Origin: a virus
Direction: 5' to 3' (one strand)
Length of the DNA: 34,981 bases
IMG/VR virus record: IMGVR_UViG_3300034072_000142
Span: 1-34,981 of that record
Under the pieces are notes generated by a model, which did not search any database, was not told the origin of the DNA, and saw only the letters and a list, made by a program, of their open reading frames with translations. Both the position numbers and the translations under genes were made by a program. This document shows positions 862 to 34,952 of the stretch, piece after piece. How positions within the stretch are numbered: position 1 is the stretch's first letter; the number at the start of each line of letters is the position of its first letter.

Positions 862-1168
862 GTTGAATTCCAAAAGGGTTATTCCATAGAAAAGGTTTGT
901 TTCTGTTTTGTAACTTGATTTCGACTGCGTTATAACCGTATGCCCTGCCAATCTTTTTAGCAACCGATGACTGATGTGAAAGCAGCCTTCTTGTGATCTT
1001 GCCCTCAGCTAACAAAGGCATTAACGCGTTTTGAATCAACTTCGGGCTTATCTTCATCTTCTCGGCTAGCTCTTTCACCGTCACAGGGCTTATTCGTTTC
1101 TGCATATATTTAAGACAGGCCAATCCACGATCAATCTTTGCCTGCTTTTGAAGTCTTGTAAGACTCAT
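830..1168 (-). CDS. Winged-helix-like putative DNA-binding protein
   Basis: The product has 112 residues. Residues about 28-62 (PVTVKELAEKMKISPKLIQN onward to LLAEGKITR) read as a helix-turn-helix followed by a wing, as in MarR- or GntR-like winged helices. The protein is basic with a polar C-terminal tail. It overlaps the MazG-like gene upstream by 4 bases. A regulatory role in this operon is inferred from the fold prediction only, because no target site can be named. It may instead be a structural DNA-binding protein. Confidence 0.6.
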   Translation of the reverse strand: MSLTRLQKQAKIDRGLACLKYMQKRISPVTVKELAEKMKISPKLIQNALMPLLAEGKITRRLLSHQSSVAKKIGRAYGYNAVEIKLQNRNKPFLWNNPFGIQHEKTGTETRA

Positions 1169-1506
1169 TTATCTGCTCTCCTTTGTGCTGCTTCGTTCGT
1201 GTACTTTGTTCCGTAGCGCCTTCTCAATTTCTCAATGTTGTGCTCAAGGATCATGTTTCGGTTAAGGCCGAGCTTTTGTCGGATGCCCTCAAGATAAAAC
1301 TCGATGTCGCCCAATTCCTCGATGACGTTGTCGATGTCTAAAGGTTTTTGATAAATCGCCCACTTCTTGATTGCGTCTAACAGTTCCCCAGACTCCCCAG
1401 AGACTCCAATGGACATGTGCAAAACAAAGGCTTGATCCGGGCTGAGATCGTCGAGGATGTCGCATCCGGGCTTTGCAAGTGCAGTGACTAATTCTGTGTG
1501 GTTCAA
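1165..1506 (-). CDS. MazG-like nucleotide pyrophosphohydrolase
   Basis: This 113-residue protein carries the metal-binding pattern of the all-alpha NTP pyrophosphohydrolase family: E38-x2-E41 in GESGELLDAIKKW and E64-x2-D67 in VIEELGDIEF, followed by a helical NIEKLRRRYG segment. Family members hydrolyse (d)NTPs to monophosphates. In phages they are thought to adjust nucleotide pools or interfere with host stringent signalling. It sits in the leftward early operon close to the helicase and the DNA-modification genes. The substrate cannot be told from the sequence. Confidence 0.85.
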   Translation of the reverse strand: MNHTELVTALAKPGCDILDDLSPDQAFVLHMSIGVSGESGELLDAIKKWAIYQKPLDIDNVIEELGDIEFYLEGIRQKLGLNRNMILEHNIEKLRRRYGTKYTNEAAQRRADK

Positions 1507-1692: not shown

Positions 1693-2610
1693 TTACCGAT
1701 GGTCGGCGGATTTGAGCTGATAATCGGTAGGCAATCCTCCGACTTCCTGAACGTACTGTTGGCTCTTTCTGTCGAACCAGAGCTTCGCAACGCCCTCCCA
1801 TTCACCGTTACGTTGTTTCTCGAAAGATAGGAAGGCATCAGGGATGGAATGGTCGACTACACCATTGGCCTCAAAATCGCGCTCCTTCGATTTATTTCTG
1901 TGCATGAGGATTACGTTGTCCACTTGATCTGCGACGCTCCCAGAGCCCTTTAAATCGTTTTTAGAGGGTGTTCTGTTGTCATCCGACTGTTTCCTGATAT
2001 GGTGAACCAAATGAATGTGAATATTTTGATCTCTCGCAAGGCCGCACAGCTCGTCGGTAAAATTTTTCTGTGCGTTGTAATCGTCCTCGCCGCGAACGCA
2101 CTTCATTAGGCTGTCAATGAAGTAGTGCTGGCAACCCAACATCGTCTTGCAGTAAACCCCGACTCCTAAGACTTGAGGTGGACTCACCGTTCCCTGTACG
2201 TCGTAGAACCAGAGTCGGTCTTTAACCCATTCCTTGAACTTCTCGTGAGCCTGTAAGGTAGGGAAGGACATCCGCGACCACTGACGCACCATCCGCTTGA
2301 GTGTCCGAACCGGCTTCATCTCGAACGAAGCGATCACTACCTTTTGGTTTTGATGAATCAGGTGCAGAGCGATCTGTCCCGCGAGAAGTGATTTGCCAGA
2401 TCCGTTCTGGCCTGCAAGCACAGTGACCTCACCTAAACGGTAGGTGAACTTATCCGCAAGTTTTGCAAACGGCATGACGATGTTCGGCTCTTCCGACGGA
2501 TTCCTCATCTCCTCAATGAGGTCGTCCATACAATCTTGAGCAGGCCTGACTTTCACAGATGCTTCCATCTGCTCGTACCACGCCTGATAGTCGAGGTTTT
2601 CGAGGATCAT
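1693..2610 (-). CDS. DnaB-like replicative helicase (RecA-fold domain)
   Basis: The product has 305 residues. A Walker A loop (GQNGSGKS, residues 67-74), SFEM at 95-98, a Walker B-like YFID at 163-166 and HLVHHIRK around 200-207 give the order typical of DnaB/twinkle-type helicase C-terminal domains. The GSGSVADQVDNVILMHR segment follows the same family pattern. There is no N-terminal primase or full DnaB N-domain, so the protein is close to a bare motor domain. The start ATG 2610 overlaps the transporter stop by 4 bases and has AGGAG 6 bases upstream. The role is inferred as unwinding at the phage fork. A RadA-like ATPase is a less likely alternative. Confidence 0.85.
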   Translation of the reverse strand: MILENLDYQAWYEQMEASVKVRPAQDCMDDLIEEMRNPSEEPNIVMPFAKLADKFTYRLGEVTVLAGQNGSGKSLLAGQIALHLIHQNQKVVIASFEMKPVRTLKRMVRQWSRMSFPTLQAHEKFKEWVKDRLWFYDVQGTVSPPQVLGVGVYCKTMLGCQHYFIDSLMKCVRGEDDYNAQKNFTDELCGLARDQNIHIHLVHHIRKQSDDNRTPSKNDLKGSGSVADQVDNVILMHRNKSKERDFEANGVVDHSIPDAFLSFEKQRNGEWEGVAKLWFDRKSQQYVQEVGGLPTDYQLKSADHR

Positions 2611-3074
2611 GATTTGCTCCTAATAATCATCGACCACAAAAATCCACCAAAAACCTTTGCGACAAACTGTAGCAAGACAATGTGCGGCATCAGTACACCA
2701 AAAGCTAAAGTCGGAAAGATGATGGAATCAACCGCAGCACCCGCTACGTTTGATCCGTTTGCTCTTTTCACCCACGATCCTTTTAGCCTTGCAAAGACAA
2801 ACCAATCAACTATCGCCGCTGCTGTAAAAGCAACCGCAGATGCGATGGCAATCTTTCCTGACGCAGGATTTAGCAAATAAGTTAAAAGACCTGTAGATGC
2901 TATGAGAACTCCCATCTGCCACAGCTTTAATTTAACGTGCAGCCAATCCCTGAGCACAAGATCAAGTCCTATAAACAAAAACGCATTAAGCGGACTGATT
3001 GCTGGACCAAATGCCGCTACGCTTAAGTTTGCTGCGGTCATTGCAAATGCGTAAACACCGATAGCTAAAAACAT
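2607..3074 (-). CDS. VUT/YhhQ-family membrane transporter (probable 7-deazaguanine precursor uptake)
   Basis: From ATG 3074 (AGGAG 5 bases upstream) the product is 155 residues with about six hydrophobic segments. Conserved features include VLRDWLHVKLKLWQMG, ASAVAFTAAAIVDWFVF and GAAVDSIIFPTLAFG, the pattern of the VUT/YhhQ family whose E. coli member is a preQ0/preQ1 transporter. It is shorter than cellular YhhQ (about 220 residues). It overlaps the DpdA-like gene by 10 bases and the helicase by 4. The neighbour strongly suggests it brings a deazaguanine precursor into the cell. The family call is from motifs, and the substrate is inferred. Confidence 0.85.
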   Translation of the reverse strand: MFLAIGVYAFAMTAANLSVAAFGPAISPLNAFLFIGLDLVLRDWLHVKLKLWQMGVLIASTGLLTYLLNPASGKIAIASAVAFTAAAIVDWFVFARLKGSWVKRANGSNVAGAAVDSIIFPTLAFGVLMPHIVLLQFVAKVFGGFLWSMIIRSKS

Positions 3075-3745
3075 AAATGCTCCTGTACAGGTCTTAACGA
3101 CCATTGTGTTGTTGGGTTTTCAGAGTCAATGCGCTTTGCGATGCAATACGCACACTCTTTCATTGATTTGTGATTGAGCGCAAGATTTGTGGAATCAGCG
3201 CTTGATAAAGGCCAGCGCTCAAGACCTTGACCGAGCATTCGCATACCGTGAGTCCACGGCAATCTGCCAAACACTTTAGACAAATGATTGAAAGTCTCAT
3301 CCATCCTAGACTGCCATTTCTGTGAACCGACATTCCAGTATTCGCCAGACGAACCTAAGCAAACCTTGCCCCAGTTATCAACAAGCTCGCAAAGATAGTC
3401 GAGAGATAAACCTAAATGCCAGACAGGAACGCCGAGTGATTTGGGGTAAGGCCAGCTTTTAACTAGTTGTCTCTGTTCTTCCTCTGTGCCGTCAATAACA
3501 TCAGGAACGACACCCCAATGCGGATGACCCAAAATTGGATCAAGCCAATCATAAAAGCCTTTAGGATCAAACGGTATGCCCCGTGTTTTTGCAGAGAAAG
3601 CGCCGTTATCCAACATGAGTGATTGACCGATTTTTAGACACACTTTTAAGTCTCTCGGTTCTGCATAGCTAATGCAGAAGTTCTCACCGGCAAGCGTTTC
3701 TAAAACCGCTCTCGGCGTAATTGGTGTGCCGTGGTAGTGCATCAT
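3065..3745 (-). CDS. dpdA: DpdA-like 7-deazaguanine DNA transglycosylase
   Basis: The product is 226 residues from ATG 3745, chosen because GGAGG lies 7 bases upstream and because the ATG overlaps the previous stop (ATGA). The sequence follows the TGT-like TIM-barrel pattern of phage DpdA proteins: LMLDNGAFS (D46), HWGVVPDVIDG (D82, D85), GVPVWHLG (105-112), KVCLGSSGEYW (127-137), THGMRMLG (165-172) and PLSSADST (D184). DpdA enzymes exchange guanine in DNA for a 7-deazaguanine such as preQ0, which blocks restriction. No preQ0 synthesis genes are visible nearby. It is smaller than many DpdA proteins. Which residues are catalytic is inferred from motif position. Confidence 0.85.
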   Translation of the reverse strand: MMHYHGTPITPRAVLETLAGENFCISYAEPRDLKVCLKIGQSLMLDNGAFSAKTRGIPFDPKGFYDWLDPILGHPHWGVVPDVIDGTEEEQRQLVKSWPYPKSLGVPVWHLGLSLDYLCELVDNWGKVCLGSSGEYWNVGSQKWQSRMDETFNHLSKVFGRLPWTHGMRMLGQGLERWPLSSADSTNLALNHKSMKECAYCIAKRIDSENPTTQWSLRPVQEHLCF

Positions 3746-4029
3746 GCGTCGACCTCCGAATCCCAATAGAGGCCGGGGCCGTAGTTAGCTATCACGCGGG
3801 CCGGGGCACATATTTTTATGGCTTGCAAGATAGAGTGGACGTGGTCAGGATCTCCTCCATTAAGATGCACCCGTAATCCTCTGACCCACCTAAAGTCTCG
3901 GTCTTTAGCATCGACTACAACAACGGGATACTCCGGGTCATCGTCCGGTTGTCCAACAAAGTCGATAAAAACAGCTTTAGGTGGTTTGCCTGCAAGCTGT
4001 AGGTTGTTTACAAAGTCGTGGCCTTTCAT
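3742..4029 (-). CDS. Unknown protein co-translated with dpdA
   Basis: The product is 95 residues from ATG 4029, with an AAGGGG ribosome site. Its start overlaps the DUF1376 stop (TGATG) and its stop overlaps the dpdA start (ATGA). It is a compact alpha/beta-looking protein with FIDFVGQPDDDPEYPVVVVD in the first half, RVHLNGGDPDHVHSILQAIK in the second, and a closing NYGPGLYWD segment. I do not recognise a family. The tight coupling makes it a candidate accessory factor for the modification genes, but position alone supports this. Confidence 0.7.
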   Translation of the reverse strand: MKGHDFVNNLQLAGKPPKAVFIDFVGQPDDDPEYPVVVVDAKDRDFRWVRGLRVHLNGGDPDHVHSILQAIKICAPARVIANYGPGLYWDSEVDA

Positions 4030-4694
4030 CAAATGCCCCTTCCCTCAAAACCATTGAGCTGAACGACGGGCTTTGCTTTATTCACCCAGTCTGCTTTAAA
4101 GGCAGTCCAGTTTCTTTCGCATATCTCTTGCAGTGCAGCATTTAATGTAAAGCCAGCTTTATTAGCCTCCCTCACAATGCCATTCCACGCCGCTTCAGTA
4201 AGCGGTGCTTTTTTATTCTTCCTAATTAAGATGAAATCATCCCATATGCGTTGATCTACATTCTCTGGCTTCTCAACACTATATTTGCTTTTCTTATGGT
4301 TATTGGTTATTGGTTTATGGTTATTGGTTGGGATCTGATCCGTATCTGAATTCAGATCTGATTTCTTATCCTTTTCTAATGTCCAACGGATCTGATTCGC
4401 ACCTCTAGCAGACGCTGCCTTACGTTGATACTTGCGAATTTCAGCATCAATCCTCTGATGCGTATATGAATTCAGATCTGAATCGTATCTGAAGAACGTC
4501 CGAAGCAGTAAGCTAAGGCAATCCTCTTGACCCCTTGCTCCTATCTTAAAAGCTAAGGTTTCAGTGTCATTAGGCAATGGCTTTTCTGACTCGTAATAGA
4601 GCCAAATCAAGCGCAGGTAAAAGTAGGATTCTTGTGGGGTAAGCGAAACGGTGTCACGCAAAAAATCCCCGATGTGATGCGGGTAGTAGTGCAT
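4029..4694 (-). CDS. DUF1376-family protein, probable replication initiation protein
   Basis: The product is 221 residues from ATG 4694 (GAGG 5 bases upstream). A GTG at 4721 would add nine residues but lacks a better ribosome site. The N-terminus has the DUF1376 signature YYPHHIGDFLRDTVSLTPQE followed by a winged-helix-like region. A polar linker (about residues 100-140) carries NNHKPITNNHKK and two SDLNS repeats. The C-terminus has a WDDFILIRKNKK... helical domain. DUF1376 proteins sit in phage replication cassettes in the place of lambda O-type initiators. The linker DNA contains the repeat cluster described separately. The initiator role is inferred. Confidence 0.75.
   Translation of the reverse strand: MHYYPHHIGDFLRDTVSLTPQESYFYLRLIWLYYESEKPLPNDTETLAFKIGARGQEDCLSLLLRTFFRYDSDLNSYTHQRIDAEIRKYQRKAASARGANQIRWTLEKDKKSDLNSDTDQIPTNNHKPITNNHKKSKYSVEKPENVDQRIWDDFILIRKNKKAPLTEAAWNGIVREANKAGFTLNAALQEICERNWTAFKADWVNKAKPVVQLNGFEGRGI
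4294..4329. repeat. AT-rich direct repeats inside the DUF1376 gene
   Basis: The 15-base unit TTATGGTTATTGGTT occurs exactly at 4294-4308 and 4315-4329, 21 bases apart. An extra ATTGGT copy fills the gap, so ATTGGTT recurs three times. The stretch is much richer in A and T than the flanks and encodes the NNHKPITNNHK linker. It lies beside the palindromic repeats at 4335-4493. Together they resemble the iteron plus AT-rich layout of phage origins located inside initiator genes. Confidence 0.8.
4335..4493. repeat. Long near-identical direct repeats with palindromic core (iteron-like)
   Basis: A 29-base unit at 4335-4363 recurs at 4455-4483 with about 26 of 29 positions identical. The copies are exactly 120 bases apart. 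The first contains the perfect palindrome TCTGAATTCAGA (4345-4356), and the second keeps TGAATTCA. Partial copies lie at 4388-4399 (GGATCTGATTCG) and 4483-4493 (TCGTATCTGAA). Because the offset is a multiple of three, both encode SDLNS in the protein. This is a candidate binding array for the DUF1376 protein. Its function is inferred. Confidence 0.75.
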
Positions 4695-4805
4695 AAGAGC
4701 CTCGTCTAGGTCTATCGTCACTGTGGGTGCATTTGGCAGGCGGGTGACGAAACCGCTTTTCGGGAGCTACCCTAGCCAATGCGATAAAACAGCCTTGAGT
4801 CTAAA

Positions 4806-9463: not shown

Positions 9464-9693
9464 TTATCAACTTTGGCATCGAGCTTGTCAAAGATCCTGC
9501 TTAACATGATCTTGATCTCGGTAATGTCTTGCTGATAATCAGACTTTAATACATAAGTATGGGGTAGACCCTTTTCCAACTCACCTAGATCCTTTTGCAG
9601 ATCTTTCTGGGCTTCCCAGAGAACACGGAAGAACCAACCGGCTACGGCACATAAAACACCGAAGAGACCGTTAATCAGATTTTGACTTTCCAT
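9460..9693 (-). CDS. Small membrane-anchored coiled-coil protein of the lysis region
   Basis: The product has 77 residues. One N-terminal hydrophobic helix (LINGLFGVLCAVAGWFF, about 6-22) is followed by a charged helical stretch (KDLQKDLGELEKGL) and a closing coiled coil (ITEIKIMLSRIFDKLDAKVD). The topology resembles XhlA-like or spanin-like lysis accessories. No lipobox and no separate outer-membrane partner is visible, so it is not called a spanin. It overlaps the glycosyltransferase end by 23 bases. Confidence 0.65.
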   Translation of the reverse strand: MESQNLINGLFGVLCAVAGWFFRVLWEAQKDLQKDLGELEKGLPHTYVLKSDYQQDITEIKIMLSRIFDKLDAKVDK

Positions 9694-10732
9694 AGTAGTC
9701 GAGATTCCTAATCAGCCGTTCATCATTAGGAGACAGTCTGACTGCCTCGGTCCCGTGTCGTATGGCTTCGTCTCTCAGGCCTAAATTGTAAGCAGAAATC
9801 GCTGCTAAGTCATGTGGCTTGAATCCCCACACCTCGGGGTCACAAGTATAGACAAGCTCTTTGTTCTTGATCTCTAAAGCCATCGTCGCTGCGTGATAAC
9901 ACTCTTTCCACATCGACTTTGTGTAGTAGGACATCGCAGCGTCCACCCACGGCTCTCGAGTTCCCGGAGCCTCGGCTATGGACATCCGAAACCACTTGAG
10001 AGCTTCCCAGCCGTTGAGTTTGTGGTCGTAAGCCTTCCCTAACAGTCTCATCGCATAACACCGCTCATTCGGCCACGTCGCTTCTGGCATGTTCAGATAC
10101 GTCTTTAGAGCGTCTATAGCCTCATCCCAGAGATGATAGAAGGTAAGCTCACGGGCGAAGTAGAAAGCGTTTCTAGGGCACCTAGGATCCTCTTTAACGG
10201 CCATCCTTAGAAGGTCGAGATACTGCCCTCGTGACTTAGTGGGATCGGGATGGTGAGAGACGAGAAGCATGTCTGTTTGGGCATAGACTTCTTTGATGCG
10301 GAGATCGGGTCTAGGGTATTCATGAATACTATGGTGGAACCTGTAGCCCTTCTTTGCGAAGATCTTTTCGTAGTAAAAGCAAATGCCTTGACCCCAGTCG
10401 AATTTATATCTAAGTCTTGTAGTCTCTGGGGTCCAGACCCTTTCTATTTCCTCACGCCATCCGGGCTCAAGAACCTCATCAAGATCAAGGGAGACGATTA
10501 CATCAACGTCAGCAGGCACTAAAGCTAGAGCAGCGTTTCTTGCTAGGTCAAAACGCCACGGGATGATTGAGATGTCGTAAACAGTAATACCGCACTCTCT
10601 AGCAAGATCAGCGGTTCCATCTGTTGAGCCTGTGTCAGCAAGAATGATTAAGTCGGCATCTTTGGCCGACTCGTAAAAACGCTTTACAAACTGAGCTTCG
10701 TTTTTTGAGATTGCGTTAACGCATATTTTCAT
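9671..10732 (-). CDS. GT2-type glycosyltransferase with C-terminal TPR-like repeats
   Basis: The product has 353 residues. The N-terminal domain has the GT-A nucleotide-binding pattern MKICVNAISKNEAQFVKRFY, DTGSTDGT (33-40) and the metal-binding D83-L-D85 in SLDLDE. The C-terminal half (about 190-345) is a run of helical pairs with TPR character (YAMRLLGKAYDHKLNGWEAL, AISAYNLGLRDEAIRHGTEA). Such enzymes in phages can modify host surface sugars, capsid or tail proteins. Its place between lysis and tail appendage genes does not settle the target. Confidence 0.85.
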   Translation of the reverse strand: MKICVNAISKNEAQFVKRFYESAKDADLIILADTGSTDGTADLARECGITVYDISIIPWRFDLARNAALALVPADVDVIVSLDLDEVLEPGWREEIERVWTPETTRLRYKFDWGQGICFYYEKIFAKKGYRFHHSIHEYPRPDLRIKEVYAQTDMLLVSHHPDPTKSRGQYLDLLRMAVKEDPRCPRNAFYFARELTFYHLWDEAIDALKTYLNMPEATWPNERCYAMRLLGKAYDHKLNGWEALKWFRMSIAEAPGTREPWVDAAMSYYTKSMWKECYHAATMALEIKNKELVYTCDPEVWGFKPHDLAAISAYNLGLRDEAIRHGTEAVRLSPNDERLIRNLDYYGKSKSD

Positions 10733-11067: not shown

Positions 11068-11670
11068 TCAAGCCTCCAGTTTCAATCCAGTTAAGTCCAT
11101 CTCTTCCCCAACAGTACCCACAGGGAAGGTATTAAACGATAAAGATATACGGGTTGTTTCACCCTGCACATTAGGAACCATGTGCGTCAATGATGAGGGA
11201 AACAGAATCAGTCTGCCTGCATAAGCCTCAAACCACCAACTCTCTGAGTTATACGCATTCCAGTTATCGGTGGGAAACTTGATCTGTTGCCAGCCATCTT
11301 TGTAAAAGTAAATCCGGTCATCAGGATTAGTCTGCACATAAAACACACCTGAGATGTACGAATTGGGGTGTGCGTGCTTGTGGTGGTACTGACCTTGTTC
11401 TGAGTAATTGCACCAGCTTTGCGTAACGCGCAAGGACACGTTGTGCTTTGGGTTGACAGTGGATTTGAAGTATTCACTCACCGAATCTTCAATGAATGAT
11501 CTGAGTGATGTTAAGGCTGGATCACGCAATACAAAGTTATTCGTGCTTGTTGTGTTACCCATATTCGGTCTGGTCTCAAGCTCACGGATGAAGAACAACT
11601 CTTCATCGCTTAACGGGCGACCGAGATCGGCAAAACCTACCGCTGTGGGGAATAGGTTATGCAATTGCAT
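11068..11670 (-). CDS. 2OG-Fe(II) oxygenase-like protein
   Basis: The product is 200 residues from ATG 11670. A TTG two codons earlier is possible. The cupin-like core shows HHKHAHPNSYISGVFYVQ (96-113) with H99/H101 as likely iron ligands. A distal H163 follows in SSLTHMVPN, and R174 in ETTRISLSFN would bind 2-oxoglutarate. This fits the phage 2OG-FeII_Oxy_5-type group. Substrates of these phage enzymes are mostly unknown. Its place among tail appendage genes suggests a phage or host surface target. The start overlaps the upstream gene by 14 bases. Confidence 0.8.
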   Translation of the reverse strand: MQLHNLFPTAVGFADLGRPLSDEELFFIRELETRPNMGNTTSTNNFVLRDPALTSLRSFIEDSVSEYFKSTVNPKHNVSLRVTQSWCNYSEQGQYHHKHAHPNSYISGVFYVQTNPDDRIYFYKDGWQQIKFPTDNWNAYNSESWWFEAYAGRLILFPSSLTHMVPNVQGETTRISLSFNTFPVGTVGEEMDLTGLKLEA

Positions 11671-11914
11671 CTTCAATCTCTTTCATCTTGATGCCCATTT
11701 CCTCTAACTGCTCAGGAAGCCACATCGTAGGGATTGACTCTTCAAACTCTTTGATCTTGTCCATCACCCAGTAAACCTCATCCATACTCGGACAGGGGCG
11801 TGGATCATCCCAGCGTGTGAATTGATTGTTTGTGATTTCCCACTTAGCACCGGGGCGAAGCATGTGCATCGCCGTATCAATGCCGAGGAAGCGGTAAATT
11901 TTTGTGTTTTCCAT
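11657..11914 (-). CDS. Unknown phage protein in appendage region
   Basis: This 85-residue acidic protein begins MENTKIYRFLGIDTAMHMLR and has RWDDPRPCPSMDEVYWVMDK in its middle. No membrane segment or catalytic motif is visible. It resembles small proteins that follow tail fibre genes in aquatic phages, but no function is recognised. It lies 8 bases after the glycine-rich protein and overlaps the oxygenase start. Confidence 0.65.
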   Translation of the reverse strand: MENTKIYRFLGIDTAMHMLRPGAKWEITNNQFTRWDDPRPCPSMDEVYWVMDKIKEFEESIPTMWLPEQLEEMGIKMKEIEDAIA

Positions 11915-26985: not shown

Positions 26986-28011
26986 TTAAGTTCCGATCAA
27001 ACGAACGCCAGCAGTTACATCACGAACGGTCGAGACCATCCGCTTCTCAGCATAGATCGTAATCGTTCCCGGCTGGGTCTGCTCCATTCTCTGAAGCGTC
27101 ATCTCCGAGTGATCGACGATCCACATAAACCGAGGCCAGTTTGCAAGATAGATTGGAGAAGCGCCAGCAGCGGGAGCGTCTAAGTAAGGATTCGCAATCA
27201 CAGGCCACCCCATGATGTTTACCGCAGGGCCTTCGTCCTTTTCGCCGACTTCAACAAGTGCGTAAGAATTACCAGAGTGTGCATATTCTCTGAGAATCTG
27301 AATCGCTGTTGGGTGCATCATCCACGCAGTTCCCGGCATTCTCCAAAACTGACCGGGAAGGGCATTAGCAACGTCTACAAGCGTTTCCCACTCAAGATTT
27401 GTGTGTGTAAAGCCAACCGTGTTAAGTGTGTGTATGCCCGCCGTTATGGCCGTTCCTGACGTTCCGTAAGCAGCGGATGATCCAGCAGTACCAGCGTACA
27501 TCTTCAAGCCTCTAAGGCCGTTTGTAGCGCCTGTGGAGGTCGTTGTAGATCCTGCTTGATCGTTATTGATTGCCATCGACGCGGCTTCGATCTGGCTGAA
27601 TTCCATTGCGAGATCTTCGACGAGTGCCGCATCTAATCCGTTAATGTCGTCCATCGCCGCAGCCCTGATTGGCATCTGAGCGGAAATAACACGCATCGGA
27701 AGCTGCCAAATACTGGTGGCGATATTGGGTGAGCCTGAGTTGGCGTTGACCGTGTATCCCCACGGGTTGGTGGAGTTAGCAGCGTTACCTGTTTTGACAA
27801 CAAACTGAATATCCGAGTCTGCCGTCATTGTCTGATTTGCATAAACCCGAAATGGGTTCCAGTAACGCAGTGATGCAAAAACATCCTCGTTATAAACGCG
27901 ACCACCAACCCCACTGCCTGAGCCGGTTAGGGCTGAGGCTTCCGCGAGGTTGACAGTGCTTTTGCCCTCGTGGAGAGCCTTTTTCAAGCCTTCCAAAATA
28001 ACCTGTTTCAT
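26986..28011 (-). CDS. Second HK97-fold capsid protein, lacking the scaffold domain
   Basis: The product is 341 residues from ATG 28011, with GGAGA 4 bases upstream. It aligns along its length with the first capsid protein: EASALTGSGSGVGGR, NPWGYTVNA, TSIWQLP, PIRAAAMDDINGLDA, INNDQAG, NGLRGL, and a shared ending TITIYAEKRMVSTVRDVTAG. By eye the matched blocks are roughly 40-45% identical. It lacks the 75-90 residue coiled N-terminal delta domain. It may be a minor vertex or lattice subunit, or an alternative major capsid protein. Confidence 0.85.
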   Translation of the reverse strand: MKQVILEGLKKALHEGKSTVNLAEASALTGSGSGVGGRVYNEDVFASLRYWNPFRVYANQTMTADSDIQFVVKTGNAANSTNPWGYTVNANSGSPNIATSIWQLPMRVISAQMPIRAAAMDDINGLDAALVEDLAMEFSQIEAASMAINNDQAGSTTTSTGATNGLRGLKMYAGTAGSSAAYGTSGTAITAGIHTLNTVGFTHTNLEWETLVDVANALPGQFWRMPGTAWMMHPTAIQILREYAHSGNSYALVEVGEKDEGPAVNIMGWPVIANPYLDAPAAGASPIYLANWPRFMWIVDHSEMTLQRMEQTQPGTITIYAEKRMVSTVRDVTAGVRLIGT

Positions 28012-28027
28012 AATCTCTCCAAAAGGG

Positions 28028-28045
28028 AGAGGGCTTGCGCCCTCT
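28028..28045 (-). promoter_or_regulatory. RNA hairpin between the two capsid genes
   Basis: On the minus strand AGAGGGC and GCCCTCT (7 pairs) flank a GCAA tetraloop. A weaker AAAA/TTTT extension follows after three bases. It fills the short gap between the stop of capsid 1 (28050) and the ribosome site of capsid 2. It could act as a partial terminator or an mRNA processing/stability element. Confidence 0.6.
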
Positions 28046-28049
28046 TTTA

Positions 28050-29399
28050 TCAAGCAGCGGTACCAGTCGAGCGATAACGCACACCAGCGTTAGGATCGCG
28101 CACAGAAGTAGCTGCACGAGTCTCGCCGTAGAACGTGATCGAACCGGGGAGCGTCTGGTCGTAGCGACGGAGAACCATCGAGAGACGCATGACGATCGTG
28201 TGGAACTGCTGCCAATCCGCGAAGTACATCGGATAGTAAGACGTAGTTCCTGCTGCGCCGGTGGTGGGCTGGCTGGGGTTATCAAGGTACTTGTTGACTG
28301 CAACCTTGAAGCCGAGCAACTCACCAACGATGCCATCAGTGCGTGACACACCGTCAACATAGATCGGACGGCCTTGCAGATCGACTAACCCACGGATGCC
28401 CTGAAGCAGGATCGGGTTAATCATGAACGCTGCTGTCGGTGTCCAATACTGCTGTGGCAGGCTGTAAATAAAGTTCACTACGTCTTTGTAGTTCACGTTA
28501 TTTGCTGCTACCGTGTTGGCGTTAGTCGTGAGCTGGTCATAGGTAGCAAGCGAGTGCAGACCGTTAGTGGTTGCAGTTCCTGACGTACCGAAAGCAGCCG
28601 TCGAGCAAGATCCACCCGTGTAAGTGCTGTTTGCACCGCCGTACTGATCCAAACCGCGCAGACCATCAGCGCCACCCGTCGTTACCGAGGTTCCGGTGCC
28701 CGACTGATCGTTGTTCTGGATCATCGAGGTTGCCATTGCCTGCTGGAATTCCATCAGCATATCGTCAACAACGTTAGCCTCAAGGCCGTCGATGTCATCA
28801 AGTGCTGCGGTACGGATGGGGAACTGAGCGTTCAAGTCCTTAAGGATCACCTGCCAAATGCTTGTGGCTTCAGTCGTGGGTGCGCCGTTGTTCTGAACGG
28901 TGTAGCCCCACTGTGCGCCCGCGTTGCCCTGCTTCACTCTAAATTGATATGCAGAGCCGTCAGTTGCAACGATGCGCGACAGATCCATTAAGGGGTTTCC
29001 GAGACGCTTTGCAGCGAAAACGGGATCGTAAGCAGTACGGCCACCAACGTCGTAACCCGAAGCCGTAAGAGCCGAGGCTTCCTTGATGTACGCTTCGCAC
29101 TGGTCCACAGATTCAAAGATCTTGACTTCGCGCTCAATGTTGTTACCGGCCTTTACGTACTCCTTAAGAACGTCTTTGAATCGACGATTTGCTTCGCCAC
29201 GGACGGTCTTATGAATAGGACGGATGATTGAAGGGGCGGCAACTTTTGCCTCTAATGCGGCAATCTTTGCTTCGGTTTCGGTTTTAAGAGCCTCGACAGC
29301 CTCAGCAACTTTTACTTCGACGGCCTGAGCGGTTTCTGCCAATTTGGCAGCGCTAGATGCTTCGATTGCATCCAGTTTTTCAATGACTTTTTCCAACAT
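28050..29399 (-). CDS. Major capsid protein (HK97 fold) with scaffold domain
   Basis: The product is 449 residues from ATG 29399, with AGGAG 8 bases upstream. The first 60 residues are a coiled coil of Ala/Glu/Lys (AVEVKVAEAVEALKTETEAK), the delta/scaffold domain that the protease normally removes. An HK97-fold shell domain follows (EASALTASGYDVGGR, SIWQVILKDLNAQFPIRTAA, LDDIDGLEANVVDDMLMEFQ) with the usual closing PGSITFYGETRAATSVRDPN. It ends with tandem stops TGA TAA. It is the main shell subunit. Confidence 0.93.
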   Translation of the reverse strand: MLEKVIEKLDAIEASSAAKLAETAQAVEVKVAEAVEALKTETEAKIAALEAKVAAPSIIRPIHKTVRGEANRRFKDVLKEYVKAGNNIEREVKIFESVDQCEAYIKEASALTASGYDVGGRTAYDPVFAAKRLGNPLMDLSRIVATDGSAYQFRVKQGNAGAQWGYTVQNNGAPTTEATSIWQVILKDLNAQFPIRTAALDDIDGLEANVVDDMLMEFQQAMATSMIQNNDQSGTGTSVTTGGADGLRGLDQYGGANSTYTGGSCSTAAFGTSGTATTNGLHSLATYDQLTTNANTVAANNVNYKDVVNFIYSLPQQYWTPTAAFMINPILLQGIRGLVDLQGRPIYVDGVSRTDGIVGELLGFKVAVNKYLDNPSQPTTGAAGTTSYYPMYFADWQQFHTIVMRLSMVLRRYDQTLPGSITFYGETRAATSVRDPNAGVRYRSTGTAA

Positions 29400-33320: not shown

Positions 33321-33790
33321 GTGCCGAACTTAGGCCCCGCAAGGAATTCGCCCATCTTAGAGCCGTCCTCAAGTTTGTTTGCCGCCAATCGAGACCGCGG
33401 AGTAAGCCCCATTTCGTTCATTAGCTTGATGGAGTTTTCCATCGCTTTGTTTGCCAGACTGATGTAAGGATTCGGAGCGTGAGTTTTCCCGCCGTTAGTC
33501 TTAACAACTAAAGGATGCTTTGCCTGCTCTTTTCTTGCGTCAATGTAGAGCTGGAGCTGGTCGGCAAGCATCATCAGCGTGTGCCTGTCCTGATCCGAGC
33601 CAATACCGTAGACATCGAACAGATAGTCGGCGGTCTCTTTTACAAACCTCTCGCGGTTAAATAAAGCCGGGTTGTCTGCCCACTCGGCAAACGGAACCCT
33701 GATCTTTACCTTCTCCGGCAGCGGGATGCCCGTGTTCTCTCCCTTTGTGCCGTGTACTAAGTGAACTTCAGGTGGATATTTCCGCTGCAT
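33317..33790 (-). CDS. terS: Small terminase subunit (P27 family)
   Basis: The product is 157 residues from ATG 33790 with GAGG 7 bases upstream. It has the P27-family layout: KIRVPFAEWADNPALFNRER, helical SDQDRHTLMMLADQLQLYID, a PNPYISLANKAMENSIKLM segment and the signature GLTPRSRLAANK. It recognises phage DNA and loads the large subunit. It overlaps the methyltransferase end by 23 bases. Confidence 0.88.
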   Translation of the reverse strand: MQRKYPPEVHLVHGTKGENTGIPLPEKVKIRVPFAEWADNPALFNRERFVKETADYLFDVYGIGSDQDRHTLMMLADQLQLYIDARKEQAKHPLVVKTNGGKTHAPNPYISLANKAMENSIKLMNEMGLTPRSRLAANKLEDGSKMGEFLAGPKFGT

Positions 33791-34952
33791 TTTCTAGCCT
33801 CGCTTTCTGTCCGGTGAATTCTTCCCATCGCTTAACGATGACGTCGCAGTATTTTGGGTCTAGTTCCATCAGATATGCAACTCGACCGGTTTTTTCACAC
33901 GCTATCATCGTAGATCCAGAACCGCCAAAACAATCTAAAACATAACGCTTATCTATTTGGTCGTTTATAGCCATTTCAATCAATTCAACTGGTTTCATAG
34001 TTGGATGCACTGTATTTTTTTGTCTTTTTAATGTCCAGACATCACCACGCAGTGTTTTATGACCACCGTAATCTCCGTAATACCAAATAAGTTCATGCTG
34101 TTTATAATATTTGTCTAAATGCTGCGCTGGATTTACTTTATCCCAAACGATCATAGCTTTAGGTTTCCTGCCTATGTCAGTCATCGCCTCCCTGAAAAGA
34201 TGAGCAAATTGCCACGAGCAGCAGACATACATAGTTTCACAACCATACAAAGACTGACGTAAAAAGTCTTTAAAGTTATCTTCATTCATCCTGTCATTTT
34301 TTATTTTTCTTTTGTCGTTAACACCCGAATAGTCTATGTTGTAAGGCGGATCAGTAAAAATCATTTCCGGTCTGACCCCATTTAATAACTTTTCAACCGC
34401 ATCCACGCTCGTACTATCGCCGCACATCAATCGGTGCTTGCCTAGTATCCAGATGTCTCCGGGCTTTGTAATAGGCTCCGGTGGAGGCTCAGGGACAGCG
34501 TCCTCGTCCGTCAATCCTTCGTTTACAACCTCCGGCTTAAGTGCGCTTATTTCCTCTTCACCGAAGCCAGTAAGACTTAAGTCTAATCCCTCAAGCTCCA
34601 ACTCCTCAAGCTCCAGACTGAGAAGCTCCGTATCCCATCCGGCATTCAAGGCCAACTTGTTGTCGGCAATGATAAGCGCCTTCTTCTGAATCTCGGTTAG
34701 GTGCGACAGTTCTATTGCCGGGATTTCCTCGAGGCCCAACCGCATCGCAGCCTTCAGCCTGCCGTGGCCAGCGATGATTCCTTTCTCGCCGTCGATCAGG
34801 ATCGGGTTAGTCCAACCAAACTCTTTTATCGACGCAGCGATCTGCGCAACTTGCTCGTCTGAGTGCGTTCGGGAATTCCTTGCGTAAGGGGTGAGATCCC
34901 CCACGCGAGTCATGACGACTGAGGGAATTCCCTGTTTTTTTGTCCTACCCAT
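33768..34952 (-). CDS. ParB-like/DNA methyltransferase fusion
   Basis: The product has 394 residues. Residues about 10-100 are a ParB/Srx-type domain (RNSRTHSDEQVAQIAASIKE, IIAGHGRLKAAMRLG). An acidic linker (about 110-160) leads to a beta-class methyltransferase: DPPY at 201-204, HPTMKP at 316-321 and the SAM loop FGGSGST at 342-348. It should methylate adenine N6 or cytosine N4 in phage DNA. The target site is unknown. AAGGA lies 9 bases upstream of the ATG. It may protect phage DNA or mark packaging sites next to terS. Confidence 0.93.
   Translation of the reverse strand: MGRTKKQGIPSVVMTRVGDLTPYARNSRTHSDEQVAQIAASIKEFGWTNPILIDGEKGIIAGHGRLKAAMRLGLEEIPAIELSHLTEIQKKALIIADNKLALNAGWDTELLSLELEELELEGLDLSLTGFGEEEISALKPEVVNEGLTDEDAVPEPPPEPITKPGDIWILGKHRLMCGDSTSVDAVEKLLNGVRPEMIFTDPPYNIDYSGVNDKRKIKNDRMNEDNFKDFLRQSLYGCETMYVCCSWQFAHLFREAMTDIGRKPKAMIVWDKVNPAQHLDKYYKQHELIWYYGDYGGHKTLRGDVWTLKRQKNTVHPTMKPVELIEMAINDQIDKRYVLDCFGGSGSTMIACEKTGRVAYLMELDPKYCDVIVKRWEEFTGQKARLENAAEIST

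Follow-up and report, generated by a model that had tools for sequence, protein, structure and literature searches.

Where could a phage that encodes an enzyme of the DpdA type, and none of the genes that make 7-deazaguanines, obtain the bases with which to modify its DNA? This question is raised by the IMG/VR virus record IMGVR_UViG_3300034072_000142, which was analysed as one whole record (34,981 bp; hereafter the window) and may be an incomplete contig, and in which a dpdA-like gene overlaps a gene for a transporter-like protein of the VUT/COG1738 (YhhQ/QPTR-type) family. Enzymes of the DpdA family replace guanine in phage DNA with a modified base. We conclude that the pair is probably a salvage-only 7-deazaguanine DNA-modification module situated in a replication operon with the following features (TGT, tRNA-guanine transglycosylase; ECF, energy-coupling factor):

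4029-4721, minus strand: DUF1376/O-like replication initiation protein, upstream of dpdA (PF07120, E 2.4e-19; phrog_678 and others)
3742-4032, minus strand: open reading frame (ORF) of 96 aa, overlapping the dpdA start by 4 nt; present only in the closest relatives
3065-3745, minus strand: dpdA-like gene, 226 aa, TGT-fold transglycosylase (phrog_887, AlphaFold, VIA, conservation)
3065-3074, minus strand: last 10 nt of dpdA, shared with the start of VUT (sequence and translations; overlapping junctions in most relatives)
2607-3074, minus strand: VUT/COG1738 (YhhQ/QPTR-type) transporter-like gene, 155 aa (PF02592, phrog_4899, AlphaFold, ECF S-component-like fold)
1693-2610, minus strand: DnaB-like helicase domain protein, downstream, overlapping the VUT end by 4 nt (PF03796, E 1.7e-17; phrog_239/phrog_5482)

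An earlier sequence-only reading had named both ORFs and their 10-nt overlap, and had placed the cassette between the replication protein and the helicase; all of this was borne out, the cassette lying within the replication operon. The overlap is 10 nt when VUT starts at the ATG at 3074; were the alternative in-frame ATG at 3104 used, the protein would be longer and the overlap 40 nt. Because the five successive minus-strand genes from 4721 to 1693 overlap by 4-10 nt at each junction, they look like one translationally coupled operon, and the dpdA/VUT cassette is probably co-translated with the replication genes. The 96-aa ORF was considered as a conserved third component and rejected because of its restriction to close relatives, and it probably falls outside the core module. 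At the 5′ end of the operon, an int-alpA RNA (Rfam RF02996; 4715-4782, minus strand) scored 39.8 bits, barely above its gathering score; it was the sole match at Rfam gathering thresholds, with no preQ1 riboswitch in the window.

The first step is to identify the enzyme. The 226-aa product of the dpdA-like gene matches phrog_887 (queuine tRNA-ribosyltransferase; E 4.7e-43) and is 40% identical to the DpdA of Pantoea phage MED16 over 198 aa, and the family profile (A1) finds the DpdA proteins of Salmonella phage 7-11 (215 bits, E 3.0e-65) and MED16 (286 bits) and, weakly, that of CAjan (43 bits, E 1.1e-12), as expected from the sequence-only assignment to the DpdA family. No Pfam or NCBIfam model matched the protein, and PDB sequence searches with it or with either profile returned nothing relevant. 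An AlphaFold model built from 43 relatives had a mean predicted local distance difference test score (pLDDT) of 88.9 and a predicted template modelling score (pTM) of 0.87. Foldseek comparison of this model with the PDB ranked general triosephosphate isomerase (TIM) barrels first with poor E-values, and VIA re-alignment placed Cap10 first (Z 14.9), followed by archaeal and Zymomonas TGTs (Z 13.4-13.9); the best 50 VIA matches all belonged to the TGT family or were Cap10 (Z 13.4-14.9 across 198-214 residues). Over 80 representatives, H5, D46, D82, H110, G131 and D184 are conserved at 0.99-1.00 (D46 and D82 at 1.00; D184 at 0.99), with the motif residues being D46 (DNGAF), D82 (PDVI), H110, G131-S132 and D184 (SADST). 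D46, D82, G131 and D184 follow successive predicted strands in the same order as DSGGF, FDEC, IGG and DCVMP of TGTs, an equivalence assigned by motif and strand order rather than by residue-level structural alignment, and in the AlphaFold model D46, D82 and D184 each sit at or just past a predicted barrel strand. The earlier proposal had been staked on a TGT-type barrel with active-site aspartates, and the model and the conserved residues point to both. In another phage, two different DpdA copies occur in one locus (L107, 4995-5684 and 6425-7123).

Its partner falls in the VUT family, again as the earlier reading held. The 155-aa protein exceeds the Vut_1 (PF02592) cut-off (46.7 vs 27.2 bits, E 5.5e-12) and matches phrog_4899 (E 1.1e-34), and all 38 aligned VUT relatives (alignment A4) match Vut_1 at E 0.001 or better. 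The AlphaFold model (pLDDT 92.2) shows six transmembrane helices, and the twelve structures that match it best are all ECF S-components (Z 8.5-10.6), in agreement with the published description of COG1738 (PMC5372724); because helical bundles score easily, this match is supportive rather than decisive. The protein thus shares with Escherichia coli YhhQ/QPTR (COG1738), which is required for preQ0 transport (PMC5372724), the Vut_1 family, six transmembrane helices and an ECF S-component-like fold, whereas it is shorter and lies under the NCBIfam equivalog cut-offs for queuosine precursor transporters, a narrower subfamily (TIGR00697, 26.1 of 50.95 bits; NF008406, 21.4 of 252 bits), so the sequence does not settle its substrate. 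In several genomes of bacteria carrying relatives of the dpdA-like gene (G045, G046, G048, G051, G053 and G055), short Vut_1 proteins are encoded within ~0.35 kb of QueC, which is independent support for a deazaguanine role.

The window itself holds no synthesis genes, a further claim of the earlier reading that stood: QueC, QueD, FolE and radical-SAM proteins were all absent in a whole-record profile search with positive controls. Relatives of 34-38 kb likewise lack QueC and QueD. QueC was found in none of 56 phage records (profile search; positive-control genomes matched), and QueD gave no match above cut-off in the 56 records and one weak match, in Caulobacter phage DMCA, beside dpdA. DMCA, a phage without a VUT gene, encodes a 98-aa mini QueD-like protein (L053, 4705-5001) that overlaps the dpdA start.

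How regular is the association between the two genes? A profile scan of IMG/VR turned up no fewer than 567 related stretches. Eighty of them were retained, and pairing was counted over clusters at 90% identity for which flanks of 1.5 kb were needed. VUT lies within 1.5 kb of DpdA in 47 of 56 IMG/VR clusters (35 downstream, 12 upstream), in 6 of 11 deposited phages (a hand-picked set), and near DpdA in 89 of the 95 relatives that share at least 50% identity with the window protein (not clustered). Single-protein scans recovered 39 DpdA loci and 11 VUT loci, and dpdA adjoins VUT in all 11 of the latter. When deposited phage records were taken from the VUT side, 21 contained a relative, which stands beside DpdA in 14 by coordinates; the remaining 7 belong to mEp021-like phages. 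At most junctions the two genes overlap by 1-13 nt, with 1, 4, 7, 10 and 13 nt the commonest among relatives. On a DpdA tree of 88 representatives (a quick tree with many weak branches), there are at least 15 changes in VUT presence or absence and at least 10 in gene order, so the pair appears to have been assembled or kept repeatedly. Both genes are under purifying selection, with nonsynonymous divergence (pN) of 0.12-0.27 vs near-saturated synonymous divergence (pS) of 0.72-0.90 when the window was compared with six relatives. Homology at E 1e-34 to 1e-43, retention in most relatives and purifying selection together place the pair beyond chance. The same pair is found in isolates Pam5, RHph_N3_2, RHph_X2_30, PEAT2, AB3P2 and RCIP0319, and the PEAT2 annotation puts VUT beside a queuine tRNA-ribosyltransferase. 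In Escherichia phage LHE71, whose recorded host is E. coli K-12, a VUT-like ORF likewise overlaps a dpdA-like one. A simple hydropathy scan of loci without VUT showed no alternative membrane protein near dpdA. Similar small proteins (MNIYRxxF...CPxD) are encoded directly upstream of dpdA in RHph_X2_30 (L049, 4765-4998) and Pseudomonas phage Epa33 (L054, 4756-5001).

From these observations we infer a substrate, a product, a direction of transport and a benefit. The VUT protein, in the host inner membrane, would add to the cell's pool of preQ0 and/or preQ1, next to host synthesis, and the short DpdA would exchange selected guanines of the replicating phage DNA for a 7-deazaguanine by the chemistry of TGTs, D184 probably serving as nucleophile and D46 as general base. 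The reaction would yield 2′-deoxy-preQ0 (dPreQ0) or 2′-deoxy-7-amido-7-deazaguanosine (dADG), either of which may blunt host restriction, and co-translation in the replication operon would deliver both proteins while phage DNA is being made. The earlier reading, which proposed DNA modification of this kind and its possible timing with replication, is supported in part.

The individual parts of such a system are already known. Phages with dpdA only were described by Hutinet et al. 2019 (group 3, e.g. 7-11), who also noted YhhQ genes in some phages, uncorrelated with any group (PMC6884629), and the idea of salvage by phages has been published (PMC6884629, PMC6266253). Phages with a full pathway reach about 30% modified G, and loss of dPreQ0 from CAjan upon dpdA deletion is genetic proof of the enzyme's role (PMC6884629). 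In Vid5 (PMC6266253) and EC151 (PMC8310023), preQ0 transporters occur together with synthesis genes, and salvage was proposed for both. Vid5, EC151 and Seuratviruses such as CAjan resemble the window in having a Vut_1-type transporter clustered with DpdA, but they have preQ0 synthesis genes of their own and the window has none, and the window DpdA is short and only distantly related to theirs. Phages 7-11 and MED16 resemble it in another way, with a homologous DpdA, no reported preQ0 synthesis genes and dADG in the DNA of both; unlike the window and most of its relatives, in which VUT overlaps dpdA, they have no VUT in the genome at the search threshold. The closest parallels are Pectobacterium phage PEAT2 (gp18-gp19), Pseudanabaena phage Pam5, Rhizobium phage RHph_N3_2 and Acinetobacter phage AB3P2, which have the same pair and no QueC, although gene order or spacing differs from that in the window; no functional work on the pair in these four phages was found in the open-licence literature. 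What is new is that members of the short DpdA family are regularly partnered by the transporter, in a combination that arose repeatedly.

Several observations weigh against a salvage-only module. Of 35 bacterial genomes in which a relative occurs, 33 have a strong QueC match, which makes the importer look dispensable. The notion that the hosts lack synthesis was therefore rejected, as only 2 of 35 are without a strong QueC match (Rhizobium subbaraonis and a Devosia ginsengisoli metagenome-assembled genome). Both are VUT-linked, and the resulting split (2 of 10 VUT-linked vs 0 of 25 others) is not significant (hand count, hypergeometric ~0.08). With QueC in most hosts, preQ0 is probably host-made, and import more likely raises supply than replaces a missing pathway. 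Also on this side, hhalign comparison of the DpdA-like protein with host TGTs gave no significant match, only the D46 motif lining up, so that the link to TGTs is a predicted one that draws on the modelled structure and a published HHpred match of MED16. Nine of the 56 IMG/VR clusters have no VUT nearby, and among relatives from bacterial genomes VUT is near DpdA in 14 of 44, so that most are without it. In assayed DpdA-only phages modification is absent or slight, with none in Orion and dADG at 0.02% of G in 7-11 and 0.13% in MED16, the two members of this DpdA family for which LC-MS has been published (PMC6884629, PMC8306585). For VUT-coupled salvage-only members no chemical or genetic data were found in the open-licence literature, and the class looks unassayed.

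Of the other explanations, the best survivor, which we nevertheless consider unlikely, is that the transporter carries a different substrate (guanine, another purine or queuine) and is merely co-located with dpdA. The Vut_1/COG1738 family is heterogeneous and its members differ in specificity (PMC5372724, PMC11130926), another point that counts against the module, and the window protein has low similarity to YhhQ-type models (TIGR00697, below cut-off). Moreover, the genome of mEp021, the only one of the 7 mEp021-like records that was checked, encodes a related VUT and no DpdA anywhere, which likewise counts against the module; its VUT may serve a different modification. The mEp021 gene (L058, 3956-5223) adjoins one for a putative cytosine methyltransferase-like protein without a Pfam match. 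The recurrent adjacency of VUT to dpdA in both orders, however, argues for a shared substrate.

It is also improbable, and somewhat more so, that the enzyme acts on tRNA and that the pair raises queuosine-type tRNA modification in the host during infection. This would fit the TGT fold and the usual role of VUT/COG1738 proteins, which normally supply tRNA queuosine (PMC5372724). Yet the protein stops after the barrel and has no cysteine among its conserved positions over the 80 representatives, and therefore lacks the zinc site found at the C terminus of tRNA TGTs; nor does it give a full-length PF01702 match, the other mark of bacterial tRNA TGTs. Its homologues in phages CAjan, 7-11 and MED16 have been connected with bases in DNA (PMC6884629, PMC8306585), the gene lies in a replication operon, and a full-length TGT is already present in 35 of the 35 bacterial genomes carrying a relative.

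We regard as very improbable a decaying or neutral auxiliary cassette that is functionless in most hosts, for although the trace modification in assayed DpdA-only phages (PMC6884629, PMC8306585) would agree with it, the strong purifying selection on both genes and their retention across divergent phages do not. Least probable of all is attachment of 7-deazaguanine to protein, as by Cap10 of the type IV cyclic-oligonucleotide-based antiphage signalling system (CBASS), an enzyme which shares a remodelled TGT fold and acts on protein. The top structural rank of Cap10, tied within about 1 Z unit with TGTs, speaks for this reading, but all TGT-fold enzymes score nearly alike, and no CBASS, Cap9/QueC-like or CD-NTase gene was present among the window families scanned.

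The modification status of dpdA-only phages has been called difficult to predict, and presence or absence of an importer offers a testable split among them. More tentatively, and with some doubt on our part, the importer and the DNA transglycosylase could form a minimal route from environment to genome in a large class of phages, with the level of hypermodification set by 7-deazaguanines scavenged from outside the cell; transporter-coupled phages would in that case be heavily modified, as against the traces in the transporter-less 7-11 and MED16. Were this true, the protection of phages from restriction would hinge on an environmental nutrient, and a very short DpdA with a 155-residue importer would rank among the smallest systems known for the hypermodification of guanine in DNA, with uses in studies of mechanism and in DNA labelling.

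Among isolates, the window's structural genes are nearest to those of Methylophilaceae phage P19250A (large terminase 67% identical, largely colinear), a phage with neither DpdA nor VUT; a freshwater betaproteobacterium is suggested as the host of the window phage. A second DNA-modification enzyme, a ParB-N domain fused to an N6/N4 DNA methyltransferase, is encoded at 33768-34952 (minus strand) and would confound simple restriction tests. Two genes past the helicase and in the same direction lies a MazG-like pyrophosphohydrolase (1165-1506, minus strand). The adjacent genes at 26986-28053 and 28050-29399 (minus strand) both match the major head family phrog_10, and P19250A has the same tandem pair. 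A family-2 glycosyltransferase and a 2-oxoglutarate-Fe(II) (2OG-Fe(II)) oxygenase are encoded at 9671-10732 and 11068-11676 (minus strand), between the endolysin and tail-fibre genes.
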